DNA of 51,194 nucleotides, from NCBI GenBank assembly GCA_001941045.1, contig MSHD01000042.1, positions 18,736 through 69,929 of the forward strand. The letters run 5' to 3'. Within the stretch, counting starts at the first letter, position 1; the number at the start of each line of letters is the position of its first letter. Positions 17,543 through 42,676 of the stretch are shown here, one piece after another. A program made the translations under genes and the position numbers. Source of the DNA: Lachnospiraceae bacterium Zagget2. Lineage in GTDB: Bacteria; Bacillota; Clostridia; Lachnospirales; Lachnospiraceae. The notes beneath the pieces are model-generated. The model saw only the letters and a program-made list of their open reading frames with translations, had not been told where the DNA came from and made no database searches.

Positions 17543-17564
17543 GCGTGAGCGTTCCGCATGATAT

Positions 17565-17765: not shown

Positions 17766-17785
17766 GTGGTCAGATTTTCCGCAGT

Positions 17786-17926
17786 TTGACATTCTTCATC
17801 CTGCTCTTATAATTTCCTTATAGACTTTAGCATCAGACACTGTAGAAAACAGAATCAACGAAATCAGGAAAAACTCATGTTGCCTCTTAACGGGGCGGGA
17901 TGAGTTTTTTTCATGCCTGTAAGTCT
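17786..17926 (+). ncRNA. Leader element copy 1: promoter, GCGAAATC-type box and terminator
   Basis: A promoter TTGACA (17786) - 16 bp - TATAAT (17808) predicts a transcript starting near ATAGAC (17820). The box CGAAATC is at 17859-17865, followed by AGGAA. A Rho-independent terminator has the stem AAACTCAT with ATGAGTTT (17871-17907) and a T run. AGACTT at 17822-17827 can pair with AAGTCT at 17921-17926 beyond the terminator. It precedes the 77-codon gene at 17970. Four relatives occur at 23023, 30758, 32328 and 35486. Confidence 0.7.
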
Positions 17927-17969
17927 GTATGAAAGTCGATGATGCGGGAGCAGGAAAGGAGAAAAAGAG

Positions 17970-18203
17970 ATGATTTTAAAACAGTATTACCGGGACGAGA
18001 TCGCGGAATATGTCCGCACTCTTCCAGAGGAGAGTTTCCGGAAAAGCGGATGGAGTCGTCCAGATGTCTTACAGGATCAGGGGATTCTGGAGCAGCTTTG
18101 GACGGCGTTTCAGAAGATGACGGAAGATTATGGCTGCGACGAAGACTGGTCGAAACAGGAAGCTGTTTGCGAAGTCCTGGGGATCGCGTGCGATGGAGTA
18201 TAG
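17970..18203 (+). CDS. Small unknown ICE protein
   Basis: The ATG at 17970 follows AAAGGAGAAAAAGAG. The 77-residue product is acidic and helical, with no membrane segment (an IAEYVRTLPEESF start, then LEQLWTAFQKMTEDYG). It is the first gene after leader copy 1 and lies 16 bp before the methylase-like gene, so it probably shares a transcript. I do not recognise a domain. Its place next to DNA methylase genes suggests a role in the maintenance part of the element, but this is only context. Confidence 0.55.
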   Translation: MILKQYYRDEIAEYVRTLPEESFRKSGWSRPDVLQDQGILEQLWTAFQKMTEDYGCDEDWSKQEAVCEVLGIACDGV

Positions 18204-18219
18204 TGAAAGGAGAAGGCAG

Positions 18220-18984
18220 ATGAAGAATAAGGTACAAGGTGTAAACAATTCTGAGGAAAAGGAATTTCTGGAACAGTTTGAACAGTTATGTAGAGGACGA
18301 AGTGCGTGGGAAGCCTGGGCGGATCTTATGGCTGCCATGGCGTGCTGGATCAGCACGGCGGCTGACCACTCGTCGGAGCATTTTGAAAAGCGCAAAAAGG
18401 AGGCAAAAACGTGTATGGAGAAGCTGGGATCGGAAGAAATCGTTCAGACAATGCTCACGATTGTCGCGGATGCGCTTGATAAAAATCCGGAGCAGGATTT
18501 TCTTGGCGGCTTGTATATGCGTCTGAATCTGGGAGACCACTGGACAGGGCAGTTTTTTACATCCTACTGTATTTCCCATTTGATGGCAGAAATGCTTATG
18601 GGAGACTGCGGAAAAGAAATCGAAGAAAAAGGCTGGACTTCCATTTACGATCCCTGCATCGGAGGAGGCGCGATGATGCTTGCGGCCGTAAACGTGATGC
18701 AGAGTAAGGGGATTGCTTATCAGAACCAGGCGCTTTTTGCAGGCCAGGATATCGACCGGATTGCCGCAATGATGGCATATATTCAGCTTTCTCTGCGTGG
18801 ATGCGCAGGATATATTGTGGTCGGCAATAGCCTTACACATCCCATGTCGGGAGATGTTCTTTTCCCACACGAAGGGGAAGGGCAGGAGCTGTGGCTTATG
18901 CCAATGTTCATGAACAACATATGGAATATGCGTAGAATCGCTGCAGTGATCGGAAATCTGGAAAGGATAGGAGACAAAGGATGA
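18220..18984 (+). CDS. N6-DNA-methylase-like protein lacking the catalytic NPPY motif
   Basis: The ATG at 18220 follows AAAGGAGAAGGCAG; an upstream in-frame ATG at 18130 overlaps the previous gene and has no site. The 254-residue protein resembles type I methylase (HsdM-like) folds. YDPCIGGGAMML (Asp144) fits the AdoMet-binding motif I, and GQDIDRIAAMMAYIQLSLRG fits the following motifs. Where the catalytic (N/D)PP(Y/F) motif is expected, the sequence reads VVGNSLTHPM. It is therefore probably not an active methylase, or it is divergent. The stop overlaps the next gene (ATGA). It might act as a subunit or a DNA-binding partner of the methylase at 19550. Confidence 0.65.
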   Translation: MKNKVQGVNNSEEKEFLEQFEQLCRGRSAWEAWADLMAAMACWISTAADHSSEHFEKRKKEAKTCMEKLGSEEIVQTMLTIVADALDKNPEQDFLGGLYMRLNLGDHWTGQFFTSYCISHLMAEMLMGDCGKEIEEKGWTSIYDPCIGGGAMMLAAVNVMQSKGIAYQNQALFAGQDIDRIAAMMAYIQLSLRGCAGYIVVGNSLTHPMSGDVLFPHEGEGQELWLMPMFMNNIWNMRRIAAVIGNLERIGDKG

Positions 18985-19538
18985 AACTGGATAAGAATAC
19001 GTTTTATATGACGGAAGACCTGTTTAACGATATCATTGCAGAAGTAAAACACTTCGGGAAATGGCCGGAGGATCTGATTGACTATGCCTGCCCCAATTCC
19101 TGGCGGCCGGCGCAGATTTGGAATTATGAGTTTGATCCGGCCTTTGTGCTGAAAGCAGGCGGGTCAGAAGGATATTATCTTGATCTTGCAATCCAGGGTT
19201 TTTATGGACCCAAAAGAGGCGAACCAGGGGGCAAAGCTCTGGGAACGATCAAAACCCTCGGCGAGAGTGAAGATACGGTTCGCAGGATGGCGGTTCTTTA
19301 TGGTGAGTGCCTGATCGCCTATGAAAAAATCATGCGTGAGAAGCTGGACGACATGACGAGGATAGGTTTCGATATCGACTGCTATATAGGTGAGACATGG
19401 GCCGGGGGATTTGCAGAGTTCAGTAAGAGGAAAGAGGCCGAAGCCAGGGCGAAAGAGCTCCTTGCAAAAAAATCGGACCTTACTCATGTGACAATTCGTG
19501 ATAATCTAAGCCGAAAAATAACAACGATCTTAAGATGA
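18981..19538 (+). CDS. Unknown ICE protein, 185 residues
   Basis: The ATG at 18981 overlaps the upstream stop by four bases, with GATAGGAGACAAAGG before it. The product has no membrane segment. It contains aromatic-rich N-terminal residues (LFNDIIAEVKHFGKWPEDL), a central YYLDLAIQGFYGP stretch and a basic, helical C-terminus (about 135-170). It lies between a methylase-like gene and a DNA methylase gene and overlaps the next short reading frame. I cannot assign a family. The tight coupling suggests a role with its neighbours. Confidence 0.55.
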   Translation: MKLDKNTFYMTEDLFNDIIAEVKHFGKWPEDLIDYACPNSWRPAQIWNYEFDPAFVLKAGGSEGYYLDLAIQGFYGPKRGEPGGKALGTIKTLGESEDTVRRMAVLYGECLIAYEKIMREKLDDMTRIGFDIDCYIGETWAGGFAEFSKRKEAEARAKELLAKKSDLTHVTIRDNLSRKITTILR

Positions 19539-19549
19539 AGGAGAACAAC

Positions 19550-20476
19550 ATGGAAGATAAAAGAAAAGGTTTTACAAGTACGCTTTTCTCCTCTCCGGAA
19601 CGGGGGACAGGCGGGAAGGCGGGCTATCGCGGAAACTGCTGCCCCGGCATCATCGAGGCGTTTATTACGCAGTATGGGATGAAGTATCTGTCGGATTATG
19701 CAGTCGGCGGTGGGACGACGAAGGACGTCTGCGAACGGTTGGGCGTGAAGGGCTTCTGGACGGATCTGCGTTTAGGCTTTGATCTTACAAAGGATGAGAT
19801 ACCGGATATTCCGGAGAATATTTTTTACCATCCGCCTTACTGGAACATGAACGGGAAGATCGTCTACTCCAATACCGAGTATGACTGGCGGGAGGTAAAA
19901 GAGCGCTATGGCTACGACCCGCGGGAGAGCGATTTATCGCAGATTGCGGACTGGGAGCAGTTCCTGCAGAAGCTGAACCAGACGGTAATGAAGCAGTACG
20001 CGGCGCTGGAACGCGGTGGTCGGATGGGCATCCTGATGGGTGACATCAAGAAAAAGGGAAGGCTGTACAGTATGCTCTTCGGCATCGCGAAGCCGGGGAC
20101 GGTGGAGCAGGTGGTGATTAAGCAGCAGTATCACTGTACATCTGACCGGACAGCTTATCGCAGCGATTCCTTCATCCCGCTCGCGCATGAGTACCTGCTG
20201 ATTTTGAGAAAGGAGCTGCCGTTTACGCTGGATTACCAGATTACCCGGACGGTGCGGCTTTCGATGCAGGATTCCCTGTCCGTGACTTGGAAGGATGTGG
20301 TTGCGGCGGTGCTGAAGGAAGAAGGGAATATTTCCCTGCAGGAACTTTACACGTGCGTCGAAGGCTTCAAAAAATGCAAAGGGAATCCATTCTGGAAAGA
20401 GAAGATCCGGCAGACATTGTACCGGTATAACTGCTTTTCAAAGGAAGAGTCGGGGTGCTGGGCGCTGTGTGCGTAG
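19550..20476 (+). CDS. DNA methyltransferase (N4/N6 amino type)
   Basis: The ATG at 19550 follows AAGGAGAACAAC; an upstream ATG at 19535 overlaps the previous stop and would add five residues. The 308-residue protein has a catalytic HPPYWN motif (94-99; a DPPY-type motif with His first) and a motif I stretch, DYAVGGGTTKDVC, near residues 50-62. The N-terminal part includes GKAGYRGNCCPGII. The last 70 residues resemble a helical add-on (SVTWKDVVAAVLKEEG). It probably methylates adenine or cytosine to protect or mark the element. No restriction enzyme gene is next to it, so it may be an orphan methylase. Confidence 0.75.
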   Translation: MEDKRKGFTSTLFSSPERGTGGKAGYRGNCCPGIIEAFITQYGMKYLSDYAVGGGTTKDVCERLGVKGFWTDLRLGFDLTKDEIPDIPENIFYHPPYWNMNGKIVYSNTEYDWREVKERYGYDPRESDLSQIADWEQFLQKLNQTVMKQYAALERGGRMGILMGDIKKKGRLYSMLFGIAKPGTVEQVVIKQQYHCTSDRTAYRSDSFIPLAHEYLLILRKELPFTLDYQITRTVRLSMQDSLSVTWKDVVAAVLKEEGNISLQELYTCVEGFKKCKGNPFWKEKIRQTLYRYNCFSKEESGCWALCA

Positions 20477-20624
20477 TGGATGTTTTTGTAGTAAATTTGC
20501 AGGGCCTGTGCTATACTGGTACATAATTCACCTGAATGAAGTAATATTTACACATTGTGGAGAGCGTGATCGGAGGTGATTTGATACGGAAAATGTAAAC
20601 CCGAATAATCCGATAGAGATCCGA

Positions 20625-20900
20625 ATGACCGGGATGAAAGCATTGATGGAGGCGCTTGGTTCTATAGGGGTGGCGAAATTTATGCAACAGTATAATATTG
20701 ACTATGGAGATTATACAATGGAAAAACAGAAGAAACCGGATATCAGCTTTGATGAGATTGATAGATGCCAGAAAACCGAAGAAAGTAGGGCTGCATTGAG
20801 AGAAATGCAGAACCTGTTTGCGGATGATAAAGGTTGGGGTTCTGAGGAAGAAATGCTGACGGACATGGCAGCATCCAGAAGGGAACACCAGACGTTGTGA
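20625..20900 (+). CDS. Small unknown protein, start uncertain
   Basis: The reading frame encodes 91 residues with a helical N-terminus (MKALMEALGSIGVAKFMQQYN) and an acidic C-terminus (SFDEIDRCQKTEESRAALREMQ). The ATG at 20625 has no clear ribosome site. A GGAGGTGA at about 20574 lies further upstream and is followed in another frame by a tiny reading frame of five codons, so the start or frame may be disturbed. A -10-like TATACT occurs near 20511. Helical proteins of this kind often sit beside toxin genes in Clostridia, but I cannot assign it. It runs tail to tail with the toxin-antitoxin pair that follows. Confidence 0.45.
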   Translation: MTGMKALMEALGSIGVAKFMQQYNIDYGDYTMEKQKKPDISFDEIDRCQKTEESRAALREMQNLFADDKGWGSEEEMLTDMAASRREHQTL

Positions 20901-20941
20901 AAAAGAGGAGAACTTTTAACAAATTTCTTCTTATTGGGAAA

Positions 20942-20962
20942 GGGGACTCGGCGGAGCCCCCC
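20942..20962 (-). terminator. Probable terminator of the HigBA-type operon
   Basis: Read on the minus strand, GGGGCTC-CGCC-GAGTCCCC forms a GC-rich hairpin with one bulge, followed by TTT. It lies about 35 bp after the antitoxin stop codon and also sits in the convergent gap with the gene at 20625. Confidence 0.5.
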
Positions 20963-20995
20963 TTCTCAGGCCATGAGACGGTCATTACACCATTG

Positions 20996-21283
20996 TCATA
21001 CTCGTGTCATCGGCTGAAACTCTATTTTTACTCGCATACCCAGCCCGGCAGCTAAGCGCCGTAAAGTTTTTATGGACGGATTACCGCCGCCGCTTTCAAA
21101 TTTGCTTATATCGCTTTGGGATATGCCGGTTTTCTCCGCGAGCTGTTTCTGCGTTATTCCGGTTTCACGCCGCGCATCAATCATTGCCTGCATGAAAGAA
21201 AACTCCGGTTCCAGTGCATCATACTCTGCCCTAAATTCAGGGTCTTTCATCTGCTCATTCAAATAATCATCAAAGTTCGTCAT
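20996..21283 (-). CDS. higA: HTH antitoxin (HigA/XRE family)
   Basis: This is a DNA-binding antitoxin of 95 residues. An XRE helix-turn-helix is clear at about residues 35-90 (ETGITQKQLAEKTGISQSDISKFESGGGNPSIKTLRRLAAGLG). The N-terminal 30 residues (YLNEQMKDPEFRAEYDALEPEF) are typical for antitoxins beside Gp49-type toxins. The gene overlaps the toxin gene by 14 bases and lies downstream of it, the toxin-first order of higBA. It should bind the palindromes before the toxin and repress the operon. Confidence 0.88.
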   Translation of the reverse strand: MTNFDDYLNEQMKDPEFRAEYDALEPEFSFMQAMIDARRETGITQKQLAEKTGISQSDISKFESGGGNPSIKTLRRLAAGLGMRVKIEFQPMTRV

Positions 21284-21635
21284 GATCTTCCATCCTTTCT
21301 AAAAATTCCGCCCGGTATCGTTTTGCCCTGTCAATCTCGCCTGGTGGTGTCTTTTGCGTTTTCTTCGTGAAGCCGTTTGTTAAGATTGCCCTGTTGCCAA
21401 TGAAAAAGAAATATAGTACCCGCGTTATATTATTTCCCATCTGCGCCCGTAATTCAAAAATTCCATCTCCAAGAGACTTTGATACTGGATCCCGTAATTC
21501 GTTTCCGTTATCCCTTAATAAACTGATTGTCCTGACCATTTTTGCTTTCATTTTTAGGTCCAAACTGTCCAGAAATTCCCGCACTGGTTCTTTCCCGTCT
21601 GGTGTCTCGTAAAAATATACTTCTATTTTCCCCAT
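21270..21635 (-). CDS. higB: RelE/ParE-superfamily toxin (HigB, Gp49-like)
   Basis: This is a 121-residue toxin of the phage-derived Gp49-like/HigB group, predicted to cleave mRNA on the ribosome. Recognisable parts are VYFYETPDGKEPVREFLDSL at the start, LGDGIFELRAQMGNNITRVLYFF in the middle, and ILTNGFTKKTQKTPPGEI near the end. It is the first gene of a two-gene operon on the minus strand, against the direction of its neighbours, so it is an independent module. It may stabilise the element after integration or transfer. Confidence 0.88.
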   Translation of the reverse strand: MGKIEVYFYETPDGKEPVREFLDSLDLKMKAKMVRTISLLRDNGNELRDPVSKSLGDGIFELRAQMGNNITRVLYFFFIGNRAILTNGFTKKTQKTPPGEIDRAKRYRAEFLERMEDHDEL

Positions 21636-21651
21636 GTGAGTATTCTCCGCT

Positions 21652-21701
21652 TATCGGTTTTATCCGATATTTATTATATCGGTTTTATCCGATATTGTCA
21701 A
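21652..21701 (-). promoter_or_regulatory. Toxin-antitoxin promoter with two palindromic operators
   Basis: On the minus strand TTGACA (21701-21696), a 17-bp spacer and TATAAT (21678-21673) form a consensus promoter. The palindrome TATCGG-TTTTA-CCGATA occurs twice. One copy fills the spacer and the other lies directly after the -10. Binding by the antitoxin would block RNA polymerase at both places. This is seen in the sequence; the binding itself is inferred. Confidence 0.85.
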
Positions 21702-21777
21702 TATATATCTACCGCTGTTTGACTTCTCTTTCTCATACTCTATCATGGAAATAATAATGGAGAAAGCAGGTGAAAAC

Positions 21778-23001
21778 ATGAAGGAGAAGCACAGGCGGAT
21801 TCTGGCTGCGGTTATCGCAGTGTTTTTATTCCTGATTGCGGCGGGGCAGGTAAGAAAGTGGTATATCCTCCGCGGCATGACAGAGGAGGAGCGGGAGATC
21901 TATTATGAGGTGAAGCAGGAGGAGAAGGATGGCTATCGACGTCTCTCCTCCCATCAGCTTGACGAGGTGGAGGAAGCGCTGAAAAGCCTGTATCAGGCAC
22001 TGAAAAGTGGTGATACGAAGGCTTCCTGCGATGCGATGGGCGTGCCGGATACCTTTGATGCAGAGACATATTCGCAGTGGCTTACAGATACCGGCTTTGA
22101 AAGCCTGCTTTCGCTTGCGGAGGATGAGGTCGGCATCCTGGATCGGGAAGAGCAGGTCCAGATGAAACAGGGATTTAATACCCAGACCTATATAGAAGAC
22201 GCGTACTACCTGTTTGATACGGACGACCAGTCCAGGAACGTCCGCCTGGTTTTTGAGGATGGATATTTCACACCGGACGGCGGCCTGGTGGGGGATTATA
22301 CGCTGCTGGCTCCGTCTGCCCGGCTTTATGAGTACAGCACGGACTTAAGTTCGGAGGATGCCGCTGATCTGAGTGTATACATCACCTGTTCTGTGGACGA
22401 ACCTTATCAGACGTCGGAGAACTGGGTCAGCGTCTGGTATCAGTACGACTTCCCGCGTTTTCTGAATACAGAGCCGCATTTCCAGATCCATTCAGACATT
22501 GGCAATTTCGATTCTTTTTATCTGGAACTTACCGAAGGTGTGCATACAGTTCTGGCGGATATCCAGGAGGAAGATGTGGAGGCGTATGTACAGACTGCGG
22601 AGGATCTGCTGAAGCATATTTTCTCGCTGCTCCAGGCGGGAGCGTCCGATGCAGAAATCGGGGAATATTTATTGTCGAGCGAACTGCTTTCGATCTGTTC
22701 CCCATCCGGAAGCAACTGGGAGATAGTCAGTTCCGGCATCGAAAGCGTGGAAGAACTGGAATTATATCTCAATACCGACGCGGAAGGCGTTCTGCCCGCG
22801 TCCTATAACTGCCGCCTTACGGAAGAGGACGGCGTTGTCCTGAAGGTGAACGCGCTGCTGCGGACGACAGAAGGGGAATGCCGGCTCACCACGACGCTCT
22901 ATATCCGCTGCATGGACGGGGAGTGGAAGCTGATCGCGATGGACCGCTCCCAGAATAACAGCCTGTTCGAGAATATTTCCATCTATGACCCGCAGTGGTA
23001 G
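21778..23001 (+). CDS. Unknown membrane-anchored protein, 407 residues
   Basis: I chose the ATG at 21778, preceded by GCAGGTGAAAAC; in-frame ATGs at 21745 and 21757 are possible. An N-terminal membrane segment (about residues 6-22, ILAAVIAVFLFLIAAG) follows a basic start. The rest is extracytoplasmic and acidic, with many Asp, Glu and Tyr residues. It has a helical part (about 35-75, EEREIYYEVKQEEKDGY) and a C-terminal beta-rich part ending in WKLIAMDRSQNNSLFENI. There is no lipobox. Leader copy 2 begins about 20 bp after its stop. I recognise no family. It may be a surface factor of the element. Confidence 0.55.
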   Translation: MKEKHRRILAAVIAVFLFLIAAGQVRKWYILRGMTEEEREIYYEVKQEEKDGYRRLSSHQLDEVEEALKSLYQALKSGDTKASCDAMGVPDTFDAETYSQWLTDTGFESLLSLAEDEVGILDREEQVQMKQGFNTQTYIEDAYYLFDTDDQSRNVRLVFEDGYFTPDGGLVGDYTLLAPSARLYEYSTDLSSEDAADLSVYITCSVDEPYQTSENWVSVWYQYDFPRFLNTEPHFQIHSDIGNFDSFYLELTEGVHTVLADIQEEDVEAYVQTAEDLLKHIFSLLQAGASDAEIGEYLLSSELLSICSPSGSNWEIVSSGIESVEELELYLNTDAEGVLPASYNCRLTEEDGVVLKVNALLRTTEGECRLTTTLYIRCMDGEWKLIAMDRSQNNSLFENISIYDPQW

Positions 23002-23022
23002 AGGCTACTGCATTTCCGTTGC

Positions 23023-23154
23023 TTGCTTTGAATCCTGCCGGAAATATAATGATTACATAGACTTGGTATCACTTGAGAACAGCGAAATACAGAAGGACCG
23101 ATTGACCGTAGACGTCAACTGGTCCTTTTTTTGCGTCCAGGGATCGGAAAGTCT
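23023..23154 (+). ncRNA. Leader element copy 2: promoter, GCGAAATAC box and terminator
   Basis: A promoter TTGCTT (23023) - 16 bp - TATAAT (23045) predicts a start near ATAGAC (23057). The box GCGAAATAC is at 23082-23090. The terminator has the stem AAGGACC with GGTCCTT (23093-23127), an inner TTGAC/GTCAA stem and seven Ts. AGACTT (23059-23064) can pair with AAGTCT (23149-23154) after the terminator, as in copy 1. It precedes the gene at 23192. Confidence 0.7.
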
Positions 23155-23191
23155 GAATATTTGCCCCGGATGGGGAGGAAAGGAGCGTTGA

Positions 23192-24358
23192 ATGGACGTC
23201 AGGGAACAGAAAATGTTGTTTATGAAGGACTCCTACAGTGCGAGGGTGGCAGACAGCCAGGAATTTATGGAGCTGCTCACGAAGATGGAGGAGACAGGAA
23301 CGTGGATTCGGGACGTGCCGCTTGACAAGCTGTATGTCAGGCCGGTATCGAAAGAACCGGAGGAGGTGGCAGAGGATTATCACATGGAGCCGGAGACGGT
23401 GGCGGACACGTCACGCAATAGCGGCCTGTTCCTGGTGTTGCGTGGTGGAGAGGCATACTGCCTCCGTTCCCAGGGAATCCGGTCACTGCATGAGCGCGCA
23501 GGGATCAGCGGCGCGGCTTACGCAAAGCTGCCGAAGGAAACAGAAGCCAGGCATCTGAACGATGGCTTAAAGGCCATGGGCGGGACAGGCATCCTGCGGA
23601 TTATCGGGGATAAGTGCCTGGGAATCCACAGCTCATCCTACAATCCGTTCAGTATGTCGGAGGCGTATGGGGAAGCGATGGACTTTTTCGCAAAGGAATT
23701 TCCAGAGGCAAAGATGCTCCGGGCGCAGATCCGCTATGAGGGCGTACAGGTATGGTTCGATTTCAGTGCGTATAATGAAGAATTGTTTTCCGATCTTCAG
23801 TATGCGTTGGGAACAAGGAGAATCCGTCCAACCCTGCTGCTCGGCATGGGAGACGCGGCACTCAGCAGTATCTCTCTTTGCCCGCAGTGTGAATCGGATG
23901 GCCTGCGTATCCCGCTCGGCGGGAAAATAGAACTGCGCCATCGCGGGAAGGAGGATCTCATGCCCCGGTTTAAGAGGCAGCTGAGTCTGATCGAAGGGCA
24001 GTTTGAGCGGCCCGCCCGGCAGATGGCGCGGATGAAGAACGGGAATCTTGTATATCCCTGCGACACCTTTTTAAATGTCGCGGCAGAGTGCGGACTTCTG
24101 AAGAGCTTTGCGAAAGCGACGAACCAGGCCTGCGAGATGTTTGAGATGCTGACGGCTCTTCCCTACAGAAGGGAAGGTCGGGAAGTGACGCCGCTGGATG
24201 TATACCTGGGGCTTTGCAGGATCATTTCTTTTGTAGGTGACAGGAAGGAGACTGGAGAGAAAGCCGCGCTGAAAGCCTCCCAGATGGTGGAGCGGGCGCT
24301 TGGAAACTTTAACTGGGCGTCTTTCGATTATCCAAGGATGGGAGGGAAAAGGACGTGA
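23192..24358 (+). CDS. Unknown ICE protein beside the YqaJ exonuclease
   Basis: The ATG at 23192 follows GGGAGGAAAGGAGCGTTGA. The 388-residue soluble protein has an N-terminal part around TWIRDVPLDKLYVRP. A central region (NPFSMSEAYGEAMDFFAKEF) follows, then SLCPQCESDGLRIPLGGKIELRH with a Cys pair, and a helical C-terminus. The GTG of the YqaJ gene overlaps its stop, so the two proteins are probably made together. In phages a YqaJ/Exo nuclease is usually paired with a single-strand annealing protein; this gene is in that position. No annealing-protein motif is recognisable, so the role is a guess from context. Confidence 0.5.
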   Translation: MDVREQKMLFMKDSYSARVADSQEFMELLTKMEETGTWIRDVPLDKLYVRPVSKEPEEVAEDYHMEPETVADTSRNSGLFLVLRGGEAYCLRSQGIRSLHERAGISGAAYAKLPKETEARHLNDGLKAMGGTGILRIIGDKCLGIHSSSYNPFSMSEAYGEAMDFFAKEFPEAKMLRAQIRYEGVQVWFDFSAYNEELFSDLQYALGTRRIRPTLLLGMGDAALSSISLCPQCESDGLRIPLGGKIELRHRGKEDLMPRFKRQLSLIEGQFERPARQMARMKNGNLVYPCDTFLNVAAECGLLKSFAKATNQACEMFEMLTALPYRREGREVTPLDVYLGLCRIISFVGDRKETGEKAALKASQMVERALGNFNWASFDYPRMGGKRT

Positions 24359-25530
24359 CAGGGAAAAAGCCGATGATCGTTGGTGACACGAAAGGCATGA
24401 CACAGGAAGAATTTGCGCGTTCCCGCATTGGGATCGGAGGAAGTGACCAGGCTACACTGGCCGGGCTTTCCCCGTGGAACTCACTGTATGGTCTGTGGAG
24501 CAGGTGCCGGGGTAAGAAGCGGACGGTATTCAAGCCGGACGAAGAGGAAGACTACCGGATGGAAAAGGGACATCTTCTGGAACCGCTGGTAGCCGAAGTC
24601 TTCCGCAGGAAGACCGGGTTTCGCGTATTTGACGATACTTCCATCTTTGCGCATGCGGATTATCCGTTTTTGCGGGCCAATATCGACCGTTTTTACGAGC
24701 GGGAGAGCTTGGATGCGTCGGGAAAGAAGTGTACAGTGCGCGGGATACTGGAGCTGAAAACCACGTTCCCGGAAAGTCAGGATGTATGGAATCTGTGGAA
24801 AAAAGGGGTCTGCCCGGAACACTATCGGCTTCAGGTCCTTTTTTACATGATGGTGCTGGATCTTGACGAGGCATATGTCGCCTGCATGTGGGGCTTTGAT
24901 GAGAAGAAGGACTATGTGCACATCCGGATTGAGCGGGACATGGAGGAGGAAGCGGAGCTTCTGAAAAGGAACGTGGATTTCTGGGATCAGTATGTGATTC
25001 CCGGGAAGAAACCGCCCCTTACGTTTTCTCGGAAACCGGAGGTGGTGATCCGTGACATCCGGGCCTATACCGGATTTGCCGATCCGGAAGCGCCCTGCGT
25101 GATCTTCCAGAGCGATTATCTTGACGACGTGCATGAGATCGAGGCGATCGACCGCGAGATACAGAGCCTGAAGAACAAGATGGACGGCCTTGCGGAGATG
25201 AAGAAAAAGCTGCAGATCCCTTTTGTGGAAGCGATGGGAAACTCGGTGACCGGTATCCTGGCGTGCGGCGACGGGGACTATTATGAGGTTGCATATAAGC
25301 CGCGCGCAAAAAGCGTGGTGCCGGTGGCGAAGCTTTTATATGGCTATCCCGATCTTGTCGAGAAGTACACAAAGGTACTGGTGACAGACCTGCGCGCGGA
25401 TTATCCGGCAGTGTTTGAAAAGGTGAGTGAGAAGGTCGGGGAGGATTCCCGGCAATTCACGATCCGTAAGAAGAAATTTAACGAAAAAAGCCGCTCGGCA
25501 TATGAGCGGAGATTAAAAGAAATCAGTTGA
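24355..25530 (+). CDS. YqaJ-family recombination exonuclease
   Basis: This is a nuclease of the lambda Exo/YqaJ (PD-(D/E)XK) family that prepares 3' single-stranded ends for recombination. The GTG start at 24355 overlaps the upstream stop, with GGGAGGGAAAAGGAC before it; an ATG at 24373 is an alternative. Signatures are RIGIGGSDQATLAGLSPW (about 25-42), a conserved Glu in MEKGHLLEPLV, an Asp in RANIDRF, and GILELKTT (E-x-K) near 130. The 391-residue protein continues with a helical region that may help with oligomers. It belongs to a recombination set with the RecD2 helicase, SSB and the primase-like protein. Confidence 0.85.
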   Translation: MTGKKPMIVGDTKGMTQEEFARSRIGIGGSDQATLAGLSPWNSLYGLWSRCRGKKRTVFKPDEEEDYRMEKGHLLEPLVAEVFRRKTGFRVFDDTSIFAHADYPFLRANIDRFYERESLDASGKKCTVRGILELKTTFPESQDVWNLWKKGVCPEHYRLQVLFYMMVLDLDEAYVACMWGFDEKKDYVHIRIERDMEEEAELLKRNVDFWDQYVIPGKKPPLTFSRKPEVVIRDIRAYTGFADPEAPCVIFQSDYLDDVHEIEAIDREIQSLKNKMDGLAEMKKKLQIPFVEAMGNSVTGILACGDGDYYEVAYKPRAKSVVPVAKLLYGYPDLVEKYTKVLVTDLRADYPAVFEKVSEKVGEDSRQFTIRKKKFNEKSRSAYERRLKEIS

Positions 25531-25545
25531 GAGTGGAGGTACAAT

Positions 25546-26466: not shown

Positions 26467-26484
26467 AAAAAAGTGGAGGAAAAG

Positions 26485-29017: not shown

Positions 29018-29173
29018 AAAGAAAGCTAGGGTAAAGTTTTTGTAGATAATATGAAATAGACAAAAAAGAAAAGTTCGGTTGAAGTCCATGTAAAAATGAT
29101 TTATGATAAAAAAAACGTTATAAATCAGCATGTGACATTTACGAAGCTTTATGATGAGCTGGAGGTTGTCGTG

Positions 29174-29362
29174 ATGAAGTTGTTTGATGATGAATATATT
29201 TTTAGAACCTATATAGCGAGTGAAAAAAGAGAAGCTGTAGAGGAAGCTGCAAAGAAAATCACACACAATCTGTCAGAGATGGGGATGTCTGTGGAGAATA
29301 TTGCGAAAGCCGTGAGTGTGCCGGTGAAACAGGTAGAAGAATGGTCTGGGCTTTTGCAATAA
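29174..29362 (+). CDS. Short helical protein, possible remnant of an Rpn-type gene
   Basis: I chose the ATG at 29174, which has GGAGGTTGTCGTG just before it; the frame is open from an ATG at 29096. The 62-residue product has a helical first half (YIASEKREAVEEAAKKITHNL) and a final EMGMSVENIAKAVSVPVKQVEEW. That ending resembles the C-terminal tail of Rpn (PD-(D/E)XK transposase-like) proteins. Without the catalytic part it would be a fragment. The DNA here is richer in A/T than the neighbours. The call is weak. Confidence 0.4.
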   Translation: MKLFDDEYIFRTYIASEKREAVEEAAKKITHNLSEMGMSVENIAKAVSVPVKQVEEWSGLLQ

Positions 29363-29383
29363 TGAAAGGAAAATGGTGGATTC

Positions 29384-30739
29384 ATGGATCTGAAACGAAA
29401 TATATATAAAAAACTCCTTGAATGGAAAGAGGACAGCAGCAGGACTACGCTGGAGGTCAGCGGGGCACGGCAGGTGGGAAAGACTTATCTCATCAACAAA
29501 TTTGCAGATGAGTGTTTTAAGCGTAAAATTTACATCAACCTGTTCGAGCTGAGCGGGAAACAGTTCATGGAATGCTACAAAAAAGCAGTGGAGTGGACGC
29601 CGGGAAACCAGCGTCCGCTTAGCCCGCTTAAGGAGGCGTTCCGACTGTACGAACCCGGGTTTGTGGATGATGAGGAGACCGTCATTATAATTGATGAAAT
29701 CCAGGAATCATCGGAGATTTATAATCGAATCCGGGAATTTACCAGGCAGTTTCGCGCGCGCTTCATCGTGACCGGAAGCTATCTGGGGCGCACTTATGAT
29801 CCTGATTTCCGGTTTTCGAGCGGGGATGTAACGAAGCTTGTTGTTTACACGCTGTCGTTTGATGAGTTCCTGCAGGCGTATGATATGGAAACATATGAGA
29901 AATACAGGATGATAAGGGAATGGCCGCTGGATGAGGTGCTGCATAAACGGTTGGGAGAGATTTACGATATTTATTGCCAGATAGGCGGCTATCCCAAAGT
30001 GGTAGAGAACTACATCCAGAATCATGATATGGAGAAGGCCGAGGGCGAGCTGGTGCGGATTATCGACACCTTCACGAACGAGTCCATCCGTTACTTCACG
30101 GATATTCTGGACACGGCGGTATTTACCCAGATCTTTCTCAGTATATGCAGGATTTTAAACCGCGAGAAAAAAGGGCTTGCCGAGGACAGTATCAGCGAGG
30201 GACTTCAGAAGCTTGTGAAGAATGACTATTCCAGCAACATTTCAAAAGCGACCTGCAACCGCGCGATCAGCTGGCTGAAATCTTCGGGGATTATCGGTTT
30301 CTGCGGAAAGATTACGGAACTTGATATTCTGAATTTTAAAGCGGCGAGCAGATGCTATTTTATGGACTGTGGTCTGGCCAATTATTATCTGAGGCGTACC
30401 GGCACTGATCCGAGGGAACTGGCGGGGACGCTGAATGAGACTTATGTGTATATCAATCTGAGCAAGCGCATTGACCATCCGGCTGAGATCGCGTTTGAGT
30501 CTCCCGCTTTTGCAGTTTATAAAGGGGGCGAGATTGATTTTGTCGTACAGGGGCTGAAAACCGGCAGGCGGTATCTTCTGGAGGTGAAATCTGGAAAAGG
30601 AGACGCGCCGACGGCAAAGAAGGCTCTGGAACAGGGAAAGGCGGATCGTCTGCTGTACCTGAAGAGGGACACCAGAGGCGGAACGGCCGGGAAAACGGAT
30701 ACGCTTCCGATATACCTTCTGGAACAATATCAGTTTTAA
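29384..30739 (+). CDS. ATP-binding protein, AAA_14/DUF4143 family
   Basis: The ATG at 29384 follows GAAAGGAAAATGGTGGATTC. The 451-residue protein has a P-loop GARQVGKTYLI (about 26-36), Walker B TVIIIDEIQES (about 104-114) and a sensor stretch ARFIVTGSYLGR. The C-terminal half is the DUF4143 region, with YFMDCGLANYYLRR and KGGEIDFVVQG near its end, followed by a YLLEVKSGKG stretch that resembles a nuclease-like (E-x-K) core. Its cellular role is not known. It is often a free-standing gene carried by mobile DNA. It lies just before leader copy 3. Confidence 0.85.
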   Translation: MDLKRNIYKKLLEWKEDSSRTTLEVSGARQVGKTYLINKFADECFKRKIYINLFELSGKQFMECYKKAVEWTPGNQRPLSPLKEAFRLYEPGFVDDEETVIIIDEIQESSEIYNRIREFTRQFRARFIVTGSYLGRTYDPDFRFSSGDVTKLVVYTLSFDEFLQAYDMETYEKYRMIREWPLDEVLHKRLGEIYDIYCQIGGYPKVVENYIQNHDMEKAEGELVRIIDTFTNESIRYFTDILDTAVFTQIFLSICRILNREKKGLAEDSISEGLQKLVKNDYSSNISKATCNRAISWLKSSGIIGFCGKITELDILNFKAASRCYFMDCGLANYYLRRTGTDPRELAGTLNETYVYINLSKRIDHPAEIAFESPAFAVYKGGEIDFVVQGLKTGRRYLLEVKSGKGDAPTAKKALEQGKADRLLYLKRDTRGGTAGKTDTLPIYLLEQYQF

Positions 30740-30757
30740 GCTTTTCGTTTTCATTGC

Positions 30758-30880
30758 TTGATTTCGCCGTGAGACCGGCTATGATGGGCATATAGACACA
30801 GTACAGTAAGAAAAGCGAAATCCGGAAAGGATCTATTGGCATGAAGAATGCCCGTAGATCCTTTTTTTCGTGCTGTGTCT
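30758..30880 (+). ncRNA. Leader element copy 3: promoter, GCGAAATC box and terminator
   Basis: A promoter TTGATT (30758) - 16 bp - TATGAT (30780) predicts a start near ATAGAC (30792). GCGAAATC is at 30815-30822. The terminator stem AGGATCTA with TAGATCCT (30828-30862) holds an inner GGCAT/ATGCC stem and is followed by seven Ts. AGACACAG (30794-30801) pairs perfectly with CTGTGTCT (30873-30880) after the terminator. It precedes parB. From the -10 onward it is almost identical to copy 4. Confidence 0.75.
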
Positions 30881-30933
30881 GTTTTACATAGATGCAGCCC
30901 GAAAACCAAATCACAAGTAGAGAGGAGATCAAA

Positions 30934-32331
30934 ATGAGTAGCAAAGAGATAATGCATGAGGATGGCCGGAAAATAGTCTACATAGGAGAGGAGCATATCC
31001 GTCCGCATCCCCAGAATCCAAGGAAAGACCTTGGTGACCTGAAGGAACTGGCAGAGTCCATCCGCAAAAATGGGATTCTGCAGAACCTGACGGTGATACC
31101 CGTAGAGGGTGAACCCGGTGAGTATATGACGGTCATCGGCCATCGCAGAATCGCCGCGGGAAGGCTTGCCGGGATTACAGAATATCCGTGCCAGATCATC
31201 GAAGGCTTAAGTGAAAGAGAGCAGCTTTCGATGATGCTGGAGGAGAATATGCAGCGGGGCGACCTCACGATCTGGGAACAGGCAAACGGTTTTCAGCTTA
31301 TGCTGGATCTGGGAGAGACGGAAGACAGCATAGCCAAAAAGACCGGCTTTTCAAAGAGCACCGTCCGGCGGAGGCTGAATATCGCGAAGCTGGACCAGAA
31401 AGTATTGAAGGAGAAGGAGGAGAAACGAGGCTTTCAGATGAGCCTGACCGATCTGTACGAGCTGGAGAAGGTTGAGGATATTGAGACCAGGAATGAGATC
31501 CTTAATAAGGCGACCGATTCCAGAAACCTGGCTTATCTTGCAAGAAATGCCGTTGAACAGAGGAAGAAAGAGCAGATAAAAGCCCTCTGTATCGAGAAAC
31601 TTGAGAAGGCCGGTGTGAAGCCTGCCCCGGAGGAGATGGCGTATCAGCTTTATAGCGGGAAGTGGGAAATCGTAAAAAGCTTTCCGTATGATAAAACTCC
31701 GGAAGAGTTTTCCGGCCTGGAAGAAGAAAAAAGTGAGTTCTTTTATCTGGAGAGGTATAACTGCCTGAATGTGGTCCGGCGCGCGAAGAAGGTGAAGAAG
31801 GAACTGACTCCTGCGGAACTGGAACAGAAGCGCAAGGAGCGGAATAAGAGACAGCTGAAAGCGATCTGGAAAGGGATGGCGGTCACCAGAAGGCGGTTTA
31901 TCGAGGACATTGTATCCGGTAAAGTACCGCCGCTTAAAGATGTCACTGATCTGGAAGCGGAGCTTTTCGACTTGCTTCTCTGGTATTCTCCCTTGATTTC
32001 GGAAAACCCGTTAAGGGATTTCTTTCTGGGAAAGGATTTTTACAAGGCCGACGAAGCGGAGGTTCGGGAAGCAGAGGAGAAGGTAAAGGGGCTGAGTCTT
32101 CTGCATAAGCTGCTGGGCCTTGTGTCCATACAGGTGGCGCAAAGCGAACTGATGGATTACAGGTTTGCCTACTTGGAGGAGAACGGAAAAAAGGCGCTGA
32201 AGTTTTATGACATCCTCAAGAAGTATGGCTTCTCATTCACAAGTGAGGAAGAGCAGGGTGTCGCTGATGGAAGCAGTGAACTTTATGAGAAAAAGAGTCC
32301 TGCATCTTTCGCGGCCGTTTCCGTTGCTTGA
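30934..32331 (+). CDS. parB: ParB/RepB-family partition protein
   Basis: I chose the ATG at 30934, preceded by AGAGGAGATCAAA; an in-frame ATG at 30892 has no site. The 465-residue protein has a ParB N-terminal nuclease-like fold: VYIGEEHIRPHPQNPRKDLGDL, LAESIRKNGILQNLTV and VIGHRRIAAGRLAG (GHRR is the CTP-binding box II). Then comes an HTH (about 135-160, SIAKKTGFSKSTVRRRLNIAKLD). A long, poorly conserved helical C-terminus follows. No parA is adjacent, as is common in ICEs. It may segregate or regulate the excised element, or bind the repeated leader DNA; the last idea is only a suggestion. Its stop codon lies inside the -35 of leader copy 4. Confidence 0.9.
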   Translation: MSSKEIMHEDGRKIVYIGEEHIRPHPQNPRKDLGDLKELAESIRKNGILQNLTVIPVEGEPGEYMTVIGHRRIAAGRLAGITEYPCQIIEGLSEREQLSMMLEENMQRGDLTIWEQANGFQLMLDLGETEDSIAKKTGFSKSTVRRRLNIAKLDQKVLKEKEEKRGFQMSLTDLYELEKVEDIETRNEILNKATDSRNLAYLARNAVEQRKKEQIKALCIEKLEKAGVKPAPEEMAYQLYSGKWEIVKSFPYDKTPEEFSGLEEEKSEFFYLERYNCLNVVRRAKKVKKELTPAELEQKRKERNKRQLKAIWKGMAVTRRRFIEDIVSGKVPPLKDVTDLEAELFDLLLWYSPLISENPLRDFFLGKDFYKADEAEVREAEEKVKGLSLLHKLLGLVSIQVAQSELMDYRFAYLEENGKKALKFYDILKKYGFSFTSEEEQGVADGSSELYEKKSPASFAAVSVA

Positions 32332-32448
32332 TTTCAGCGCGGGGGCGGTTATGATGGGCGTATAGACACAGTACAGTAAGAAAAGCGAAATCAGGAAAGG
32401 ATCTATTGGCATGAAGAATGCCCGTAGATCCTTTTTTGCTCTGTGTCT
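32328..32448 (+). ncRNA. Leader element copy 4: promoter, GCGAAATC box and terminator
   Basis: A promoter TTGATT (32328, overlapping the parB stop) - 16 bp - TATGAT (32350) predicts a start near ATAGAC (32362). GCGAAATC is at 32385-32392. The terminator stem AGGATCTA with TAGATCCT (32398-32432) is followed by six Ts. AGACACAG (32364-32371) pairs with CTGTGTCT (32441-32448). It is nearly identical to copy 3, 1,570 bp upstream, through 32472. It precedes the gene at 32498. Confidence 0.75.
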
Positions 32449-32497
32449 GTTTTACATAGATGCAGCCCGGAAACCAGTACCAGAAAGGAGAACAGAG

Positions 32498-33408
32498 ATG
32501 ATCAGTAACCAGATAACAAAATTCCAGAACAGCAAAAAGTTGATTGAGTTCGTGGACAAGCTTACACCGGCAGACCCGAGCGCGTATGCGCACCTGCATG
32601 CAGGTATGGAAGATCTCGAAAAGGGAGAGTCGAAGAAATACTCCCTGATCGGGATCAACATCCTCGACTACACGGCGGGGAAGGGCGACGCTTCCGTGTT
32701 CGCTTCCTTCAACCTCTCGCCCTGTGAGATTCAGCAGATTGCGGTCAAAATACCGCGGGAAATAGAGCACTGTGCGGATAAGAAGCTGCTGCAGCTGCTC
32801 GATAGCAAGGCATCTATTACGATGGCTGTGGCCTGCAATGCAGTTCAGCATTACGATGACCTTATGGGGGATCTGTTTTATTTCCTCTCGGAAGCCTATC
32901 CGGACAAAAAGGTTTTTCTGGATTACAAGATGATGGAAATGGATACCGAGGGAATCAGAAAGAAGCTGGCCACGCACTATAAGCTGGATGACAGGCTTGT
33001 ATACAGCGCGGAAAAGTTGGTCGCAAAGCGGCTGGACAAGGACGGCTACGCAGCGATGAAAAAGTTTATGGTCAGACGCTGCGAGAAGGACCGCGACGGA
33101 AATGACCGGCGCTCACCCTGGCAGATTTTTATCGACAATGGGAAGGCAATCCCTGTGGAGCTGGAGAGCGGAGCAAAATGCGCGAAGAAGGATTCCTACA
33201 TTTCGGAAAATCGGCGTCGGTATGGCTCTCTGACGACGAGATTGAAAAGCTGTTCCGTTCGGTGTGCAGCTACATCCGCGTTTTCGAGAATACGATGTGC
33301 TATCCGGCGATCCGCGAAGGACGCAGCGCCTACGCGCAGGAGCAGAGCCGGAAGTGGGAAGAGAGGCGCGCAGCATGGGGAGGTGACATATATGAAGAGG
33401 CTTCTTGA
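32498..33408 (+). pseudogene. Unknown ICE protein interrupted by a -1 frameshift near 33175
   Basis: The ATG at 32498 follows AGAAAGGAGAACAGAG. The first 227 codons (soluble, with YSLIGINILDYTAGKGDASVFASF and a PREIEHCADKKLLQLL helix) look fully coding. After an AAAA run at 33175-33178 the good coding sequence moves back one base. It continues from 33178 as REEGFLHFGKSASVWLSDDE to a stop at 33408. In the original frame the sequence becomes Arg-rich nonsense and then merges, without a stop, into the next gene. One missing A would explain it. It could be a mutation, an assembly error at a homopolymer, or less likely a programmed shift. No family recognised. Confidence 0.65.
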
Positions 33409-34282
33409 TGATCTTTCTTACGAGGATTACCTCAGTGTACTGGCACAGTCCATGGAAATCCGGGATGGCAGGCCGTCCTTTTCGGTGACCAGCCGTCTGG
33501 AGGCATTAAAGAAAAGCCTGGATGAAAAGGAGACGCTGGAGATCAAAAGCAGTGTGGGGGCCGCAGATAATGCAGATTCCGTTACCGTGTGCGTCGAGCT
33601 TACGATTTTTGACGGAGAGCATGAGCCGGTCAGGAGCGTGGAGGCGTGTTCACGCGCTTTCATGGACGTCAATACGGGTTCCTATTATGATTCGAGAAAC
33701 TATGCCTATAAAAACGCTTATTTTGGGGCGCTGGAGATTGCAGTCTCCCTTCTCGGATTTTCCAGTGAGCTGATTCTGCAGGAAATTCTGACGGGTGGCA
33801 TGCTCTCAGGGAAAGAACTGGATGACAGGGTTCGCTCCGCAGGGATTCCGATGGAAAGCGCGGAACTGATCACCGGGGAAACCCGCCTTGCGGTGAAGGA
33901 AAAGATGGTGAAGGAAATGGAACCGCAGGAAACTGAGAAGCCGACAGATACAGCAACAGTCTCACCGGAGCCGTTGAAGGCGGTGTTGGCGGAAGAAGAG
34001 CCGAAGACGGTTTTGCCAGAAGAATCCAAAGAGGCCTCGATGGAGGAAACGAAAGAACCGTCCGCTGACCGGTCGTTAGAGGAAGAGTATGAAAATGCCC
34101 TGGAATACCGGTTGAGCGCAACGACCTGCAGGGGGAAGTCCCTGCGGGAGCTTCTAAGTGAGAACGGGGAAAACGGACTTATTTCCATCTGTCGGTTCAT
34201 GCTGGAGCGTTATGGCAGGTCCGACCCAGGCTATGAAGCCTATCAAACGGTGTTGAAGAAGCTCGAAAAGAAAGCCGGCTAG
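33392..34282 (+). CDS. Unknown ICE protein, possibly DNA-annealing or DNA-binding
   Basis: I chose the ATG at 33392, preceded by GGGGAGGTGACATAT. The 296-residue protein has an N-terminal domain of about 165 residues (DGRPSFSVTSRLEALKKSL; AFMDVNTGSYYDSRNYAYKNAYFGALEIAVSLLG). An acidic low-complexity linker rich in Glu, Pro and Lys follows (about 180-235), then a helical C-terminal domain (ENALEYRLSATTCRGKSLREL). The Ala/Tyr-rich middle recalls annealing proteins in shape only. It lies 14 bp before the primase-like gene. The function is not established. Confidence 0.6.
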   Translation: MKRLLDDLSYEDYLSVLAQSMEIRDGRPSFSVTSRLEALKKSLDEKETLEIKSSVGAADNADSVTVCVELTIFDGEHEPVRSVEACSRAFMDVNTGSYYDSRNYAYKNAYFGALEIAVSLLGFSSELILQEILTGGMLSGKELDDRVRSAGIPMESAELITGETRLAVKEKMVKEMEPQETEKPTDTATVSPEPLKAVLAEEEPKTVLPEESKEASMEETKEPSADRSLEEEYENALEYRLSATTCRGKSLRELLSENGENGLISICRFMLERYGRSDPGYEAYQTVLKKLEKKAG

Positions 34283-34296
34283 GAGGAAGGAGGCAT

Positions 34297-35469
34297 ATGG
34301 CGAAAGAGTTCACCTTTGATGTGGCGTTTGTGCTGGACTACCTTGGTGTGGCACACCCGGGCCGGGGCTTTGGCGATGCAGCCTACATTGACTGTCCGGT
34401 TTGCCATGGAAAGCGGAAGATGCAGGTGGTCTACAGCAAGAACCTGGTGCGCTGCAACAAATGCGGCGCGGGCGGCGGAATGCTCGCGCTCGCAAAAGAA
34501 ATGCTGGGCGTGGAAAGCCGCAGCGAAGCTGCCCGTATCCTGGGTGCTGCGCAGGGGAGTACTTCTTTTCGCTGTGTGCCGCAGCCATCGGAGGATCCCC
34601 GGAAGTATCAGGGCTGGGAGGCACAGTATAAGGCAAAGACGCTCAGTGTGGAAGTGCGGGATCATACATATACCCATTACCTTCATTACCTGACGCTTTC
34701 CGACGACCATTTCCAGCAGCTTACGAAAGTGCGGGGGCTTACGCCTCCGCAGATCGAAGCGTTCGGATTCAAAAGCGTGCCGATGATGGGAAAGCGGACA
34801 ATACCGGAAGCCCTGCAGGATGAGGGTTGCCGGCTTCTGGGCGTCCCGCTCTTTTATCAGAAGGATGGCTGTGTACTGGCGAACCTGGGACAGGGGAAAG
34901 GCTTTTATATCCCTGTGCGGGATCTGGGTGGCCGTATCCTCGGTCTTCAGATCCGGCTCGACGAAGGGAAGACGCGGTATATCTGGGTGACTTCCTGGAG
35001 CGATCGCTACCTTATGAAAGCGGGGAGCAATCTCGCCGGTATCCCCAAATTCCATCATGTGGGCTTTGCAGAGGCGCGGAAGGCGGGAACGGTTCCGGTT
35101 TTCGGGCTTACGGAAGGGCCTCTTAAGGCGGACATCTGTACGTCCTTGGGCTATCCGTATCCGATGATCGCCCTGTGCGGGCTCAGCAACCAGCTCGGTC
35201 TGTATGAAGAGCTGAAGCGGCTGCGGGATGAGTATGGCTTAAAGACGGTGCAGGATTTCACCGACATGGACAAATTCGCCTTGCCGCGGCCGGGTGAGAA
35301 GAACTATGTAAAAGAGCATTGTGATACGATCTGCAGGAAAATCAGGGAGCTTGGCCTTCGCATAGAGCGGTATTCGTGGGATCAAAGGTATAAGGGATTC
35401 GATGATTTCCTCCTTGCGTTAAAGCGGGGAAACGCGGATGAAAAAAGCCTGCAAGTGTGGCAGCGGTGA
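34297..35469 (+). CDS. Primase-like protein with CHC2 zinc finger and TOPRIM-like domain
   Basis: This protein probably makes primers for replication of the element. The ATG at 34297 follows AGGAGGAAGGAGGCAT. An N-terminal zinc ribbon has Cys33 and Cys36, then Cys53 and Cys56, followed by GAGGGMLALA, as in DnaG-type CHC2 fingers; here all four ligands are Cys. A TOPRIM-like segment includes Glu273 in GLTEGPLKAD and Asp323/Asp325 in FTDMDK. The 390-residue length is short for a full primase and no DnaB-binding domain is seen. It is followed by leader copy 5 and an SSB gene, a coherent replication set. Confidence 0.8.
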   Translation: MAKEFTFDVAFVLDYLGVAHPGRGFGDAAYIDCPVCHGKRKMQVVYSKNLVRCNKCGAGGGMLALAKEMLGVESRSEAARILGAAQGSTSFRCVPQPSEDPRKYQGWEAQYKAKTLSVEVRDHTYTHYLHYLTLSDDHFQQLTKVRGLTPPQIEAFGFKSVPMMGKRTIPEALQDEGCRLLGVPLFYQKDGCVLANLGQGKGFYIPVRDLGGRILGLQIRLDEGKTRYIWVTSWSDRYLMKAGSNLAGIPKFHHVGFAEARKAGTVPVFGLTEGPLKADICTSLGYPYPMIALCGLSNQLGLYEELKRLRDEYGLKTVQDFTDMDKFALPRPGEKNYVKEHCDTICRKIRELGLRIERYSWDQRYKGFDDFLLALKRGNADEKSLQVWQR

Positions 35470-35485
35470 CGGCTTTTTCCGTTGT

Positions 35486-35596
35486 TTGACTTGGTAAGGC
35501 AGCCGCTTTATCATGAAAGCATAGACTTTGGATCATGTAGAGCAAGCGAAATCAAGGAAGACCTGTGAAGCCTTATGGCGGCATGGGTCTTTTTTG
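35486..35596 (+). ncRNA. Leader element copy 5: promoter, GCGAAATC box and terminator
   Basis: A promoter TTGACT (35486) - 17 bp - TATCAT (35509) predicts a start near ATAGAC (35521). GCGAAATC is at 35546-35553, followed by AAGGAAGACC. The terminator stem AAGACC with GGTCTT (35558-35591) has an inner GCC/GGC stem and six Ts. Unlike the other four copies, I do not see a clean partner for AGACTT after the terminator. It precedes the SSB-like gene at 35659. Confidence 0.65.
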
Positions 35597-35658
35597 CGTG
35601 GCCCATGAGCCGGAGTAAATAAAAAAATGCCTTGCCAGGCATGGAAAGAGAGGAAACT

Positions 35659-42662: not shown

Positions 42663-42676
42663 TGAAAGGAGTGGAG

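Follow-up and report, generated by a model that had tools for sequence, protein, structure and literature searches.

The 51,194-nt stretch of the Lachnospiraceae bacterium Zagget2 genome analysed here (the window; its genome is designated G000) contains a mobile element, and five plus-strand gaps, all located to the right of the left end of this element, carry leaders of one plan (c1–c5). In each of them a −35 element and a TATNAT −10 element are followed by ATAGAC, an RCGAAAU(C/A) box and a predicted intrinsic terminator. From the arrangement of these sequences, we lean towards reading all five as attenuators of transcription that form one regulon and would be opened together by an element-specific antitermination factor.

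The first leader, c1 (17776–17931), has the upstream element and −35, a −10 at 17808–17813, the 5′ end ATAGAC at 17820, the box at 17858–17865, a U-run ending at 17911 and the 3′ arm AAGTCTGTAT; it precedes ORF (open reading frame) 17970 and an N6-methylase set. In c2 (23013–23157), the −10 is at 23045–23050, the 5′ end at 23057, the box at 23082–23089, the U-run end at 23132, and the 3′ arm is AAGTCTGA; the genes downstream encode a 388-aa protein, YqaJ, DUF5688 and RecD2. The c3 leader (30748–30883; −10 at 30780–30785, 5′ end 30792, box 30815–30822, U-run end 30868, 3′ arm GTGCTGTGTCTGT) stands before parB, whose start was placed by eye at 30934. Its recent duplicate, c4 (32318–32451; −10 at 32350–32355, 5′ end 32362, box 32385–32392, U-run end 32437, 3′ arm CTGTGTCTG), precedes the gene of a 594-aa protein and a DUF3854 gene, the primase of the first-pass annotation. 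Finally, c5 (35476–35616) has its −10 at 35509–35514, 5′ end at 35521, box at 35546–35553 and U-run end at 35595, with a long-range stem in a shifted register ending at 35616, and is followed by an SSB-like, AAA and VWA set. The downstream genes were labelled from Pfam; NCBIfam supports the SSB label only weakly (E 0.0078).

The common plan, already proposed in the first-pass annotation, is well beyond chance. The pattern ATAGAC-N8..38-CGAAAT has five matches in the window against 0.26 expected, and none of 100 shuffles reached five. ATAGAC starts exactly 6 nt past the −10 in all five leaders, and a sequence-only model built from them (R1) scored the five copies at 55–74 bits and had no other match in the window. 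The five are not all independent: c3 and c4 share 91% identity across 122 nt, and likewise across an adjoining 45 nt, which makes them recent duplicates and leaves four leader lineages. This likeness could be taken to mean that the leaders are recent segmental duplications without function, an explanation that we find hardly credible, as c1, c2 and c5 have little in common beyond the promoter, ATAGAC and the box, while the shape of the terminator is kept. None of the covariance models of Rfam 15 matched the five leaders at gathering score (the single window match being a pemK RNA described below), which agrees with the earlier statement that no such family had been described.

The promoters have best −35/−10 spacers of 16, 16, 16, 16 and 17 bp in c1–c5, as had been claimed, though the −35 of c2 is poor (three mismatches). 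A further common element, TTTCCGTTGCTTGA, lies over the −35, with deviations in c1 and c3. We searched the 3.34-Mb genome with a promoter motif derived from these same copies, CCGNNGNTTGNNNT-N14..17-TATNAT, and observed six matches, five of them inside the element, against none for the reversed control. The matches in the element are c1, c2, c4, c5 (c3 deviates) and a sixth promoter at 21712–21746 on the plus strand, which has a TATCAT −10 and, over the −35, the common element in the form CCGCTGTTTGACTT, and in which we saw no ATAGAC, box or terminator. The presence of this −35 element in all five copies and at a leaderless promoter, together with its near-confinement to the mobile element in this genome, would also fit a regulon controlled at the DNA level by an activator or a repressor, where the leader and terminator serve as insulation only. 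We regard this as rather improbable, since it leaves unexplained the conserved box past the start and its fixed distance to the terminator; moreover, promoter control and attenuation can coexist. A separate idea, that the box is an inverted copy of the promoter element, was ruled out by eye, the resemblance being common to the c3 and c4 promoters only.

Next, we analyzed the predicted RNAs. By one common criterion, a hairpin followed by a U-run is predicted between the promoter and the first gene in all five leaders, with energies of −17.5 to −22.3 kcal/mol. The terminators have a common shape, namely a long lower stem, a 1×1 mismatch (2×2 in c5) and a short upper stem, and the U-run starts 43–46 nt past the first base of CGAAAT. 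In agreement with the earlier claim of intact terminators of unlike sequence, the stems differ between the copies, apart from c3 and c4, which are alike. The box is mostly unpaired (probabilities of 0.94, 0.62, 0.92, 0.94 and 0.63 in c1–c5), as is most of the RNA ahead of the terminator, where the best nascent folds reach only 0 to −3.2 kcal/mol; the (A/G)CGAAAT(C/A) box named before is found in all five copies. The RNAs terminated at these sites are predicted to be 75–92 nt long. Short RNAs with a mostly unpaired 5′ part could be imagined to act in trans as small RNAs, with the downstream genes being incidental, but we hold this to be very unlikely, as all five lie in the gap before an operon.

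In all five leaders, an AGGA/GGAA-type sequence just past the box has an ATG, GTG or TTG 4–12 nt further on, still ahead of the U-run. In c4 the frame (32411–34282) is open from an ATG within the terminator loop and is in frame with the 594-aa protein, so that a read-through mRNA could encode a form of this protein 29 residues longer. These features raise the idea of attenuation coupled to translation, in which ribosomes on a short leader ORF, starting from this Shine-Dalgarno-like sequence, would open the terminator. The leader peptides are, however, not conserved (8 codons in c1, 16 in c3, fused to the gene in c4), c2 and c5 start with TTG and GTG, and the purine stretch doubles as a side of the terminator: this purine-rich side of the lower stem also faces the U-run. 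As a rough chance estimate over four lineages, simple arithmetic gives 1–2%. Taken together, we consider translational coupling quite improbable.

The first 10–20 nt of the leader can pair with the sequence just past the U-run. The duplex energies of this long-range stem are −14.6, −12.6, −20.3, −14.6 and −14.8 for c1–c5. Against shuffles of the 3′ region, the corresponding p values are 0.0095, 0.13, 0/2000, 0.0025 and 0.0095; hence the pairing beats shuffles in four of the five copies and is not significant in c2. The stem of c5, missed in the first-pass annotation, is present in a shifted register (ACUUUGGAUCAUG/CAUGAGCCGGAGU). When cognate arms were compared with non-cognate ones, c1, c2 and c5 were only weakly specific, and the 3′ region of c2 paired equally with the 5′ arm of c5. 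The pairing claimed earlier therefore stands, c5 included, whereas its use of covariation as proof of structure does not: with c4 being a duplicate of c3, the "two kinds" of stem come down by eye to about one compensatory event over about two columns, and the case for true covariation appears thin. The same shuffle test on 15 leaders of the family called R2 (see below), with their 5′ end assumed, gave no significant stem (p 0.06–0.86). As the stem can form only in read-through RNA, it cannot be the switch.

We then looked for the leaders elsewhere. Neither patterns nor R1 revealed a further leader in the own genome, where a looser pattern had 8 matches elsewhere against 17 for its reversed control. 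The strict pattern had four matches outside the own genome among 299 genomes of the bacterial family (own included). One of these, in genome G165 (L090, 1501–1545), reads TATTAT-N6-ATAGAC..AAGCGAAAT followed by a T-run, with an R1 E-value of 4.4e-4 and a hairpin that is weak by eye; it is possibly a diverged single copy or a chance match. When 397 family genomes were scanned with R1 under stricter filters, 89 of the 396 other than G000 had weak matches (E ≤ 0.1). The best was in G281 (E 3.8e-5, where ∼0.015 matches would be expected); five of these loci were read, the G281 site had no terminator U-run past it, and the weak matches were taken as chance. Among 392 genomes of the order (391 others), a set that overlaps the family set, R1 found the own copies only at E ≤ 0.001. 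In a separate scan of 25 other sources, R1 at E ≤ 5 had just one 12-bit match outside the window. In IMG/VR the strict pattern had no match; the looser one had 30, of which none carried four of the six −10 bases correctly placed and none was leader-like. Megablast of 17750–42600 gave no plasmid match and one 86-nt match in phage records, and a distant BLAST search with c4, one of the five copies, gave no plasmid match and six weak phage records, one of which was examined and rejected. The wider leader family that had been proposed was therefore not borne out: as far as these searches reached, there is no convincing copy outside this element. Conservation across species consequently cannot be used in support of the attenuator regulon, a point that counts against it.

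Related elements carry another leader family instead. A homologue of the window AAA protein (29–36% identity) is present in 16 of 249 other family genomes, and where its loci were read, a different leader, R2, often occupies the gap ahead of the operon; R2 is unrelated in sequence to c1–c5. A scan of 397 family genomes with R2 at E ≤ 1e-6 gave 55 matches in 25 of them; 18 of these 25 genomes have at least two copies, which do not always share a contig. Since five of the six sequences behind the R2 model were taken from genomes that were part of the search, matches to these five are built in. On single contigs, G035 has four copies within 48 kb, G104 three within 40 kb and G028 five, one of which lacks the box. 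In G000 the R2 model had no match at E ≤ 0.01. Counting G000, the AAA protein is present in 17 genomes, and 5 of these had no R2 match.

R2 was seen in L044, L045, L046, L047, L050, L061, L167, L168, L171, L173, L175, L177, L180–L185, L187, L199, L211 and L212. For the folding of its hairpin P1, two duplicates and four matches without a box (one from G028) were removed from a set of 28, as were two more that lacked the 5′ sequence needed. The order of R2 is a promoter with a CTATATATAGTG-like sequence between −35 and −10, P1, the box GUUUA(A/G/U)GUUUG and a terminator, which is often followed by another. P1 formed in 20 of 20 folded copies (no shuffle control), with UGUG-type closing in 14, UUUAUGC/GCAUAAG in four and GUUAUCC/GGAUAGC in two, and shows compensatory changes. 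Terminators were scored in 22 loci, among them L174, which duplicates L173 in the region of the box. Of these, 18 have their first terminator U-run 41–52 nt past the end of the box (the window distances run from the first base of CGAAAT) and three have it farther away; in one (L168) the criterion detected none. At least two terminators precede the gene in 11 of the 22; such tandem arrangements would speak for a relief able to pass several terminators. Rfam models had no match at gathering score in five relative loci, and at E ≤ 1 in seven R2 loci only one, with E 0.62, on the other strand and outside the leader.

R2 thus has the same plan as c1–c5 and stands before counterpart operons, while differing in P1, in its own box, in its often tandem terminators and in sequence; neither P1 nor the R2 box was found in c1–c5. 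Its copies precede an SSB-like/AAA set, a set of a 388-aa protein, YqaJ and RecD2, an NAD-dependent DNA ligase set and a gene of ∼280 aa (several operons were read by eye from the letters, and Pfam was run on eight proteins). The window 388-aa and YqaJ proteins are 24% and 33% identical to those behind a weak R2 match in G013 (L206), and the window RecD2 is 32% identical to a protein behind R2 in G191 (L204); the VWA protein of the c5-type operon was seen in one relative record, L084. From the presence of R2 before counterparts of the c2 and c5 operons, it appears that the operon positions were kept and the leader was exchanged. Unlike leader families at corresponding gene sets would suggest a common way of switching such genes on together, and a single factor over the five leaders, as the first-pass annotation had envisaged, is plausible.

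Two observations were made alongside R2. Upstream of the AAA homologue's operon, L051, L052 and L053 carry a third leader type, TTGACTATTGAAGCTGCATATGCTATAAT with the terminator GTGTCA..TTGGCAC. Moreover, R2 promoters (e.g. L050 and L168) have CTATATATTGTG / CTATATATAGTG between −35 and −10, which resembles the NrdR box; it could tie the R2 operons to a host regulator of DNA precursors or be an operator of the element.

In the mechanism that we favour, polymerase would start at ATAGAC, using a promoter type that in this genome is hardly seen outside the element, and by default most transcripts would end at the terminator after 75–92 nt. Upon activation of the element, an element-specific factor, most likely a protein and possibly an RNA, would bind the single-stranded box that lies just upstream of the terminator hairpin, and its recognition may extend to the conserved 5′ end. 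The polymerase would then pass, leading to joint expression of the DNA modification, recombination, partition, primase-like and SSB operons. In the read-through mRNA, the 5′ end may pair past the terminator and so be hidden, possibly stabilising the message. This attenuator regulon is argued for by the constant geometry (6 nt; 43–46 nt), the intact terminators of the same shape and the conserved, mostly unpaired box. The read-through pairing beyond shuffles in four of five leaders and not in 15 R2 leaders, the nearly element-confined promoter motif, the R2 leaders at counterpart operons, and the experimental precedents canT of Tn916 and conAn of pLS20 point in the same direction. Several points weigh against it, besides the lack of copies elsewhere. 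Pfam, NCBIfam and PHROGs named no antiterminator among the scanned element proteins (some small ORFs were outside the scan), and the genome has one NusG-domain match, so that no LoaP-type paralogue was found. Terminators right after a promoter could also be simple insulators. What the sequence shows is five copies with their promoters, boxes and predicted terminators, the complementarity of the long-range arms, and leaders of like plan at counterpart operons of related elements; termination itself, its relief, the factor and the stabilising role are inferred.

The precedents were compared by description. Elements of Gram-positive bacteria that have been shown experimentally to use terminators with antitermination include Tn916 with canT and pLS20 with conAn (PMC11658703, PMC8955417). 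As described there, canT is like our leaders in belonging to a Gram-positive mobile element, in having terminators between promoter and operon, and in a relief encoded by the element, its terminator insulating from host transcription. It is unlike them in being one long antiterminator, with activity in sequences of 341 and 452 nt (PMC11658703), whereas the window has five leaders, all of them short and all equipped with a promoter and a terminator of their own; in place of a long processive cis-acting RNA, these give predicted RNAs of 75–92 nt in five copies. The conAn system (ConAn1 protein and conAn2 RNA) also belongs to a conjugative element of Gram-positive bacteria, with terminator-bearing operons expressed only from the right promoter. 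As described, however, it stands at the head of a single conjugation operon that contains over 20 terminators, and not at five dispersed maintenance operons.

As described, canT is a processive antiterminator that acts in cis, most likely as an RNA, and is accompanied by a terminator that insulates (PMC11658703). This invites the idea that, in the manner of put, EAR or canT, the leader RNA modifies its own polymerase while still nascent, so that read-through always occurs and the terminators stop outside polymerases only. The R2 leaders, with a hairpin and box followed by one or more terminators, agree with such a scheme, and ATAGAC at the predicted 5′ end could mark transcripts from the own promoter. 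We nevertheless consider it unlikely: the window leaders are near-unstructured before the terminator, whereas known RNA antiterminators all have predicted stem-loops according to the canT study (PMC11658703), and polymerases arriving from upstream would transcribe the box too.

LoaP offers a further likeness to the attenuator regulon, in that a single factor serves two gene clusters and the leader has both a hairpin and a terminator (PMC12691694). The dfn/mln leader hairpin is a 5′ recognition element followed by an intrinsic terminator, as in our leaders. LoaP, however, is a NusG paralogue acting on a UNCG hairpin, and a stable hairpin ahead of the terminator is lacking in the window leaders; no UNCG-loop hairpin was found there. 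PF02357 matches number one each in G000, G028, G035, G102, G104, G191 and G232, four in G013 and two in G046; with one NusG-domain match in G000 and in six of the eight others, a LoaP-type paralogue is unlikely. Target RNAs of ANTAR proteins of the EutV type are two-hairpin elements. They resemble our leaders in that terminators are relieved by an RNA-binding protein, but the two-hairpin form is not seen in the leaders. Hence the leaders resemble canT, conAn and LoaP in plan, and the specific membership tests that were made placed them in none of these classes.

The left boundary of the element was placed at 17535–17548, as the alignments of five congeners end at 17535–17547. Its right boundary was not found, the window right of 17547 having no match in the congeners' stretches. 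A Tn916-type integrase lies at 42659–43915 and may or may not be part of this element. That the element is an integrative and conjugative element (ICE) is an assumption, conjugation genes having been looked at through Pfam scans alone. Close relatives of the element were not obtained from two genome-contig scans or from viral scans with the 594-aa, AAA and YqaJ proteins. A ParB search gave two distant contigs, with no leader seen there, and distant ParB-domain matches occur in 39 of 80 relatives (own genome included). The pemK RNA (RF02913, 46.9 bits) is at 42077–42133, outside the leaders and upstream of the integrase region. Two identical 20-nt repeats, TATCGGTTTTATCCGATATT, lie at 21652–21696, beside the minus-strand ORFs 20996–21283 and 21270–21635, and the whole reads like a toxin–antitoxin pair with its operator. 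A small protein encoded at 41213–41611 has similarity to sigma-70 region 4 (Pfam E 6.6e-5, below the cut-off); it is conceivable that it reads the −35 motif of the element.

In the literature searched, we found no report of this dispersed, multi-copy form or of an exchange of leader families at counterpart operons. We tentatively propose, without putting it above even chance, that related elements in this bacterial family keep their main DNA-maintenance operons behind element-specific attenuators that are opened together by a cognate factor, the leader family being swapped wholesale while the operon positions are kept. Such a private "password" would silence the genes in the absence of their own factor and would avoid cross-activation between co-resident elements. 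The known antitermination systems of conjugative elements, canT and conAn, serve single long operons. If the proposal is true, silencing by termination would be a recurrent design of such elements, and the leaders would offer compact recognition sequences for finding new antitermination factors. The authors of the canT study suspect similar mechanisms in other ICEs (PMC11658703), and the leaders described here are candidates for these.

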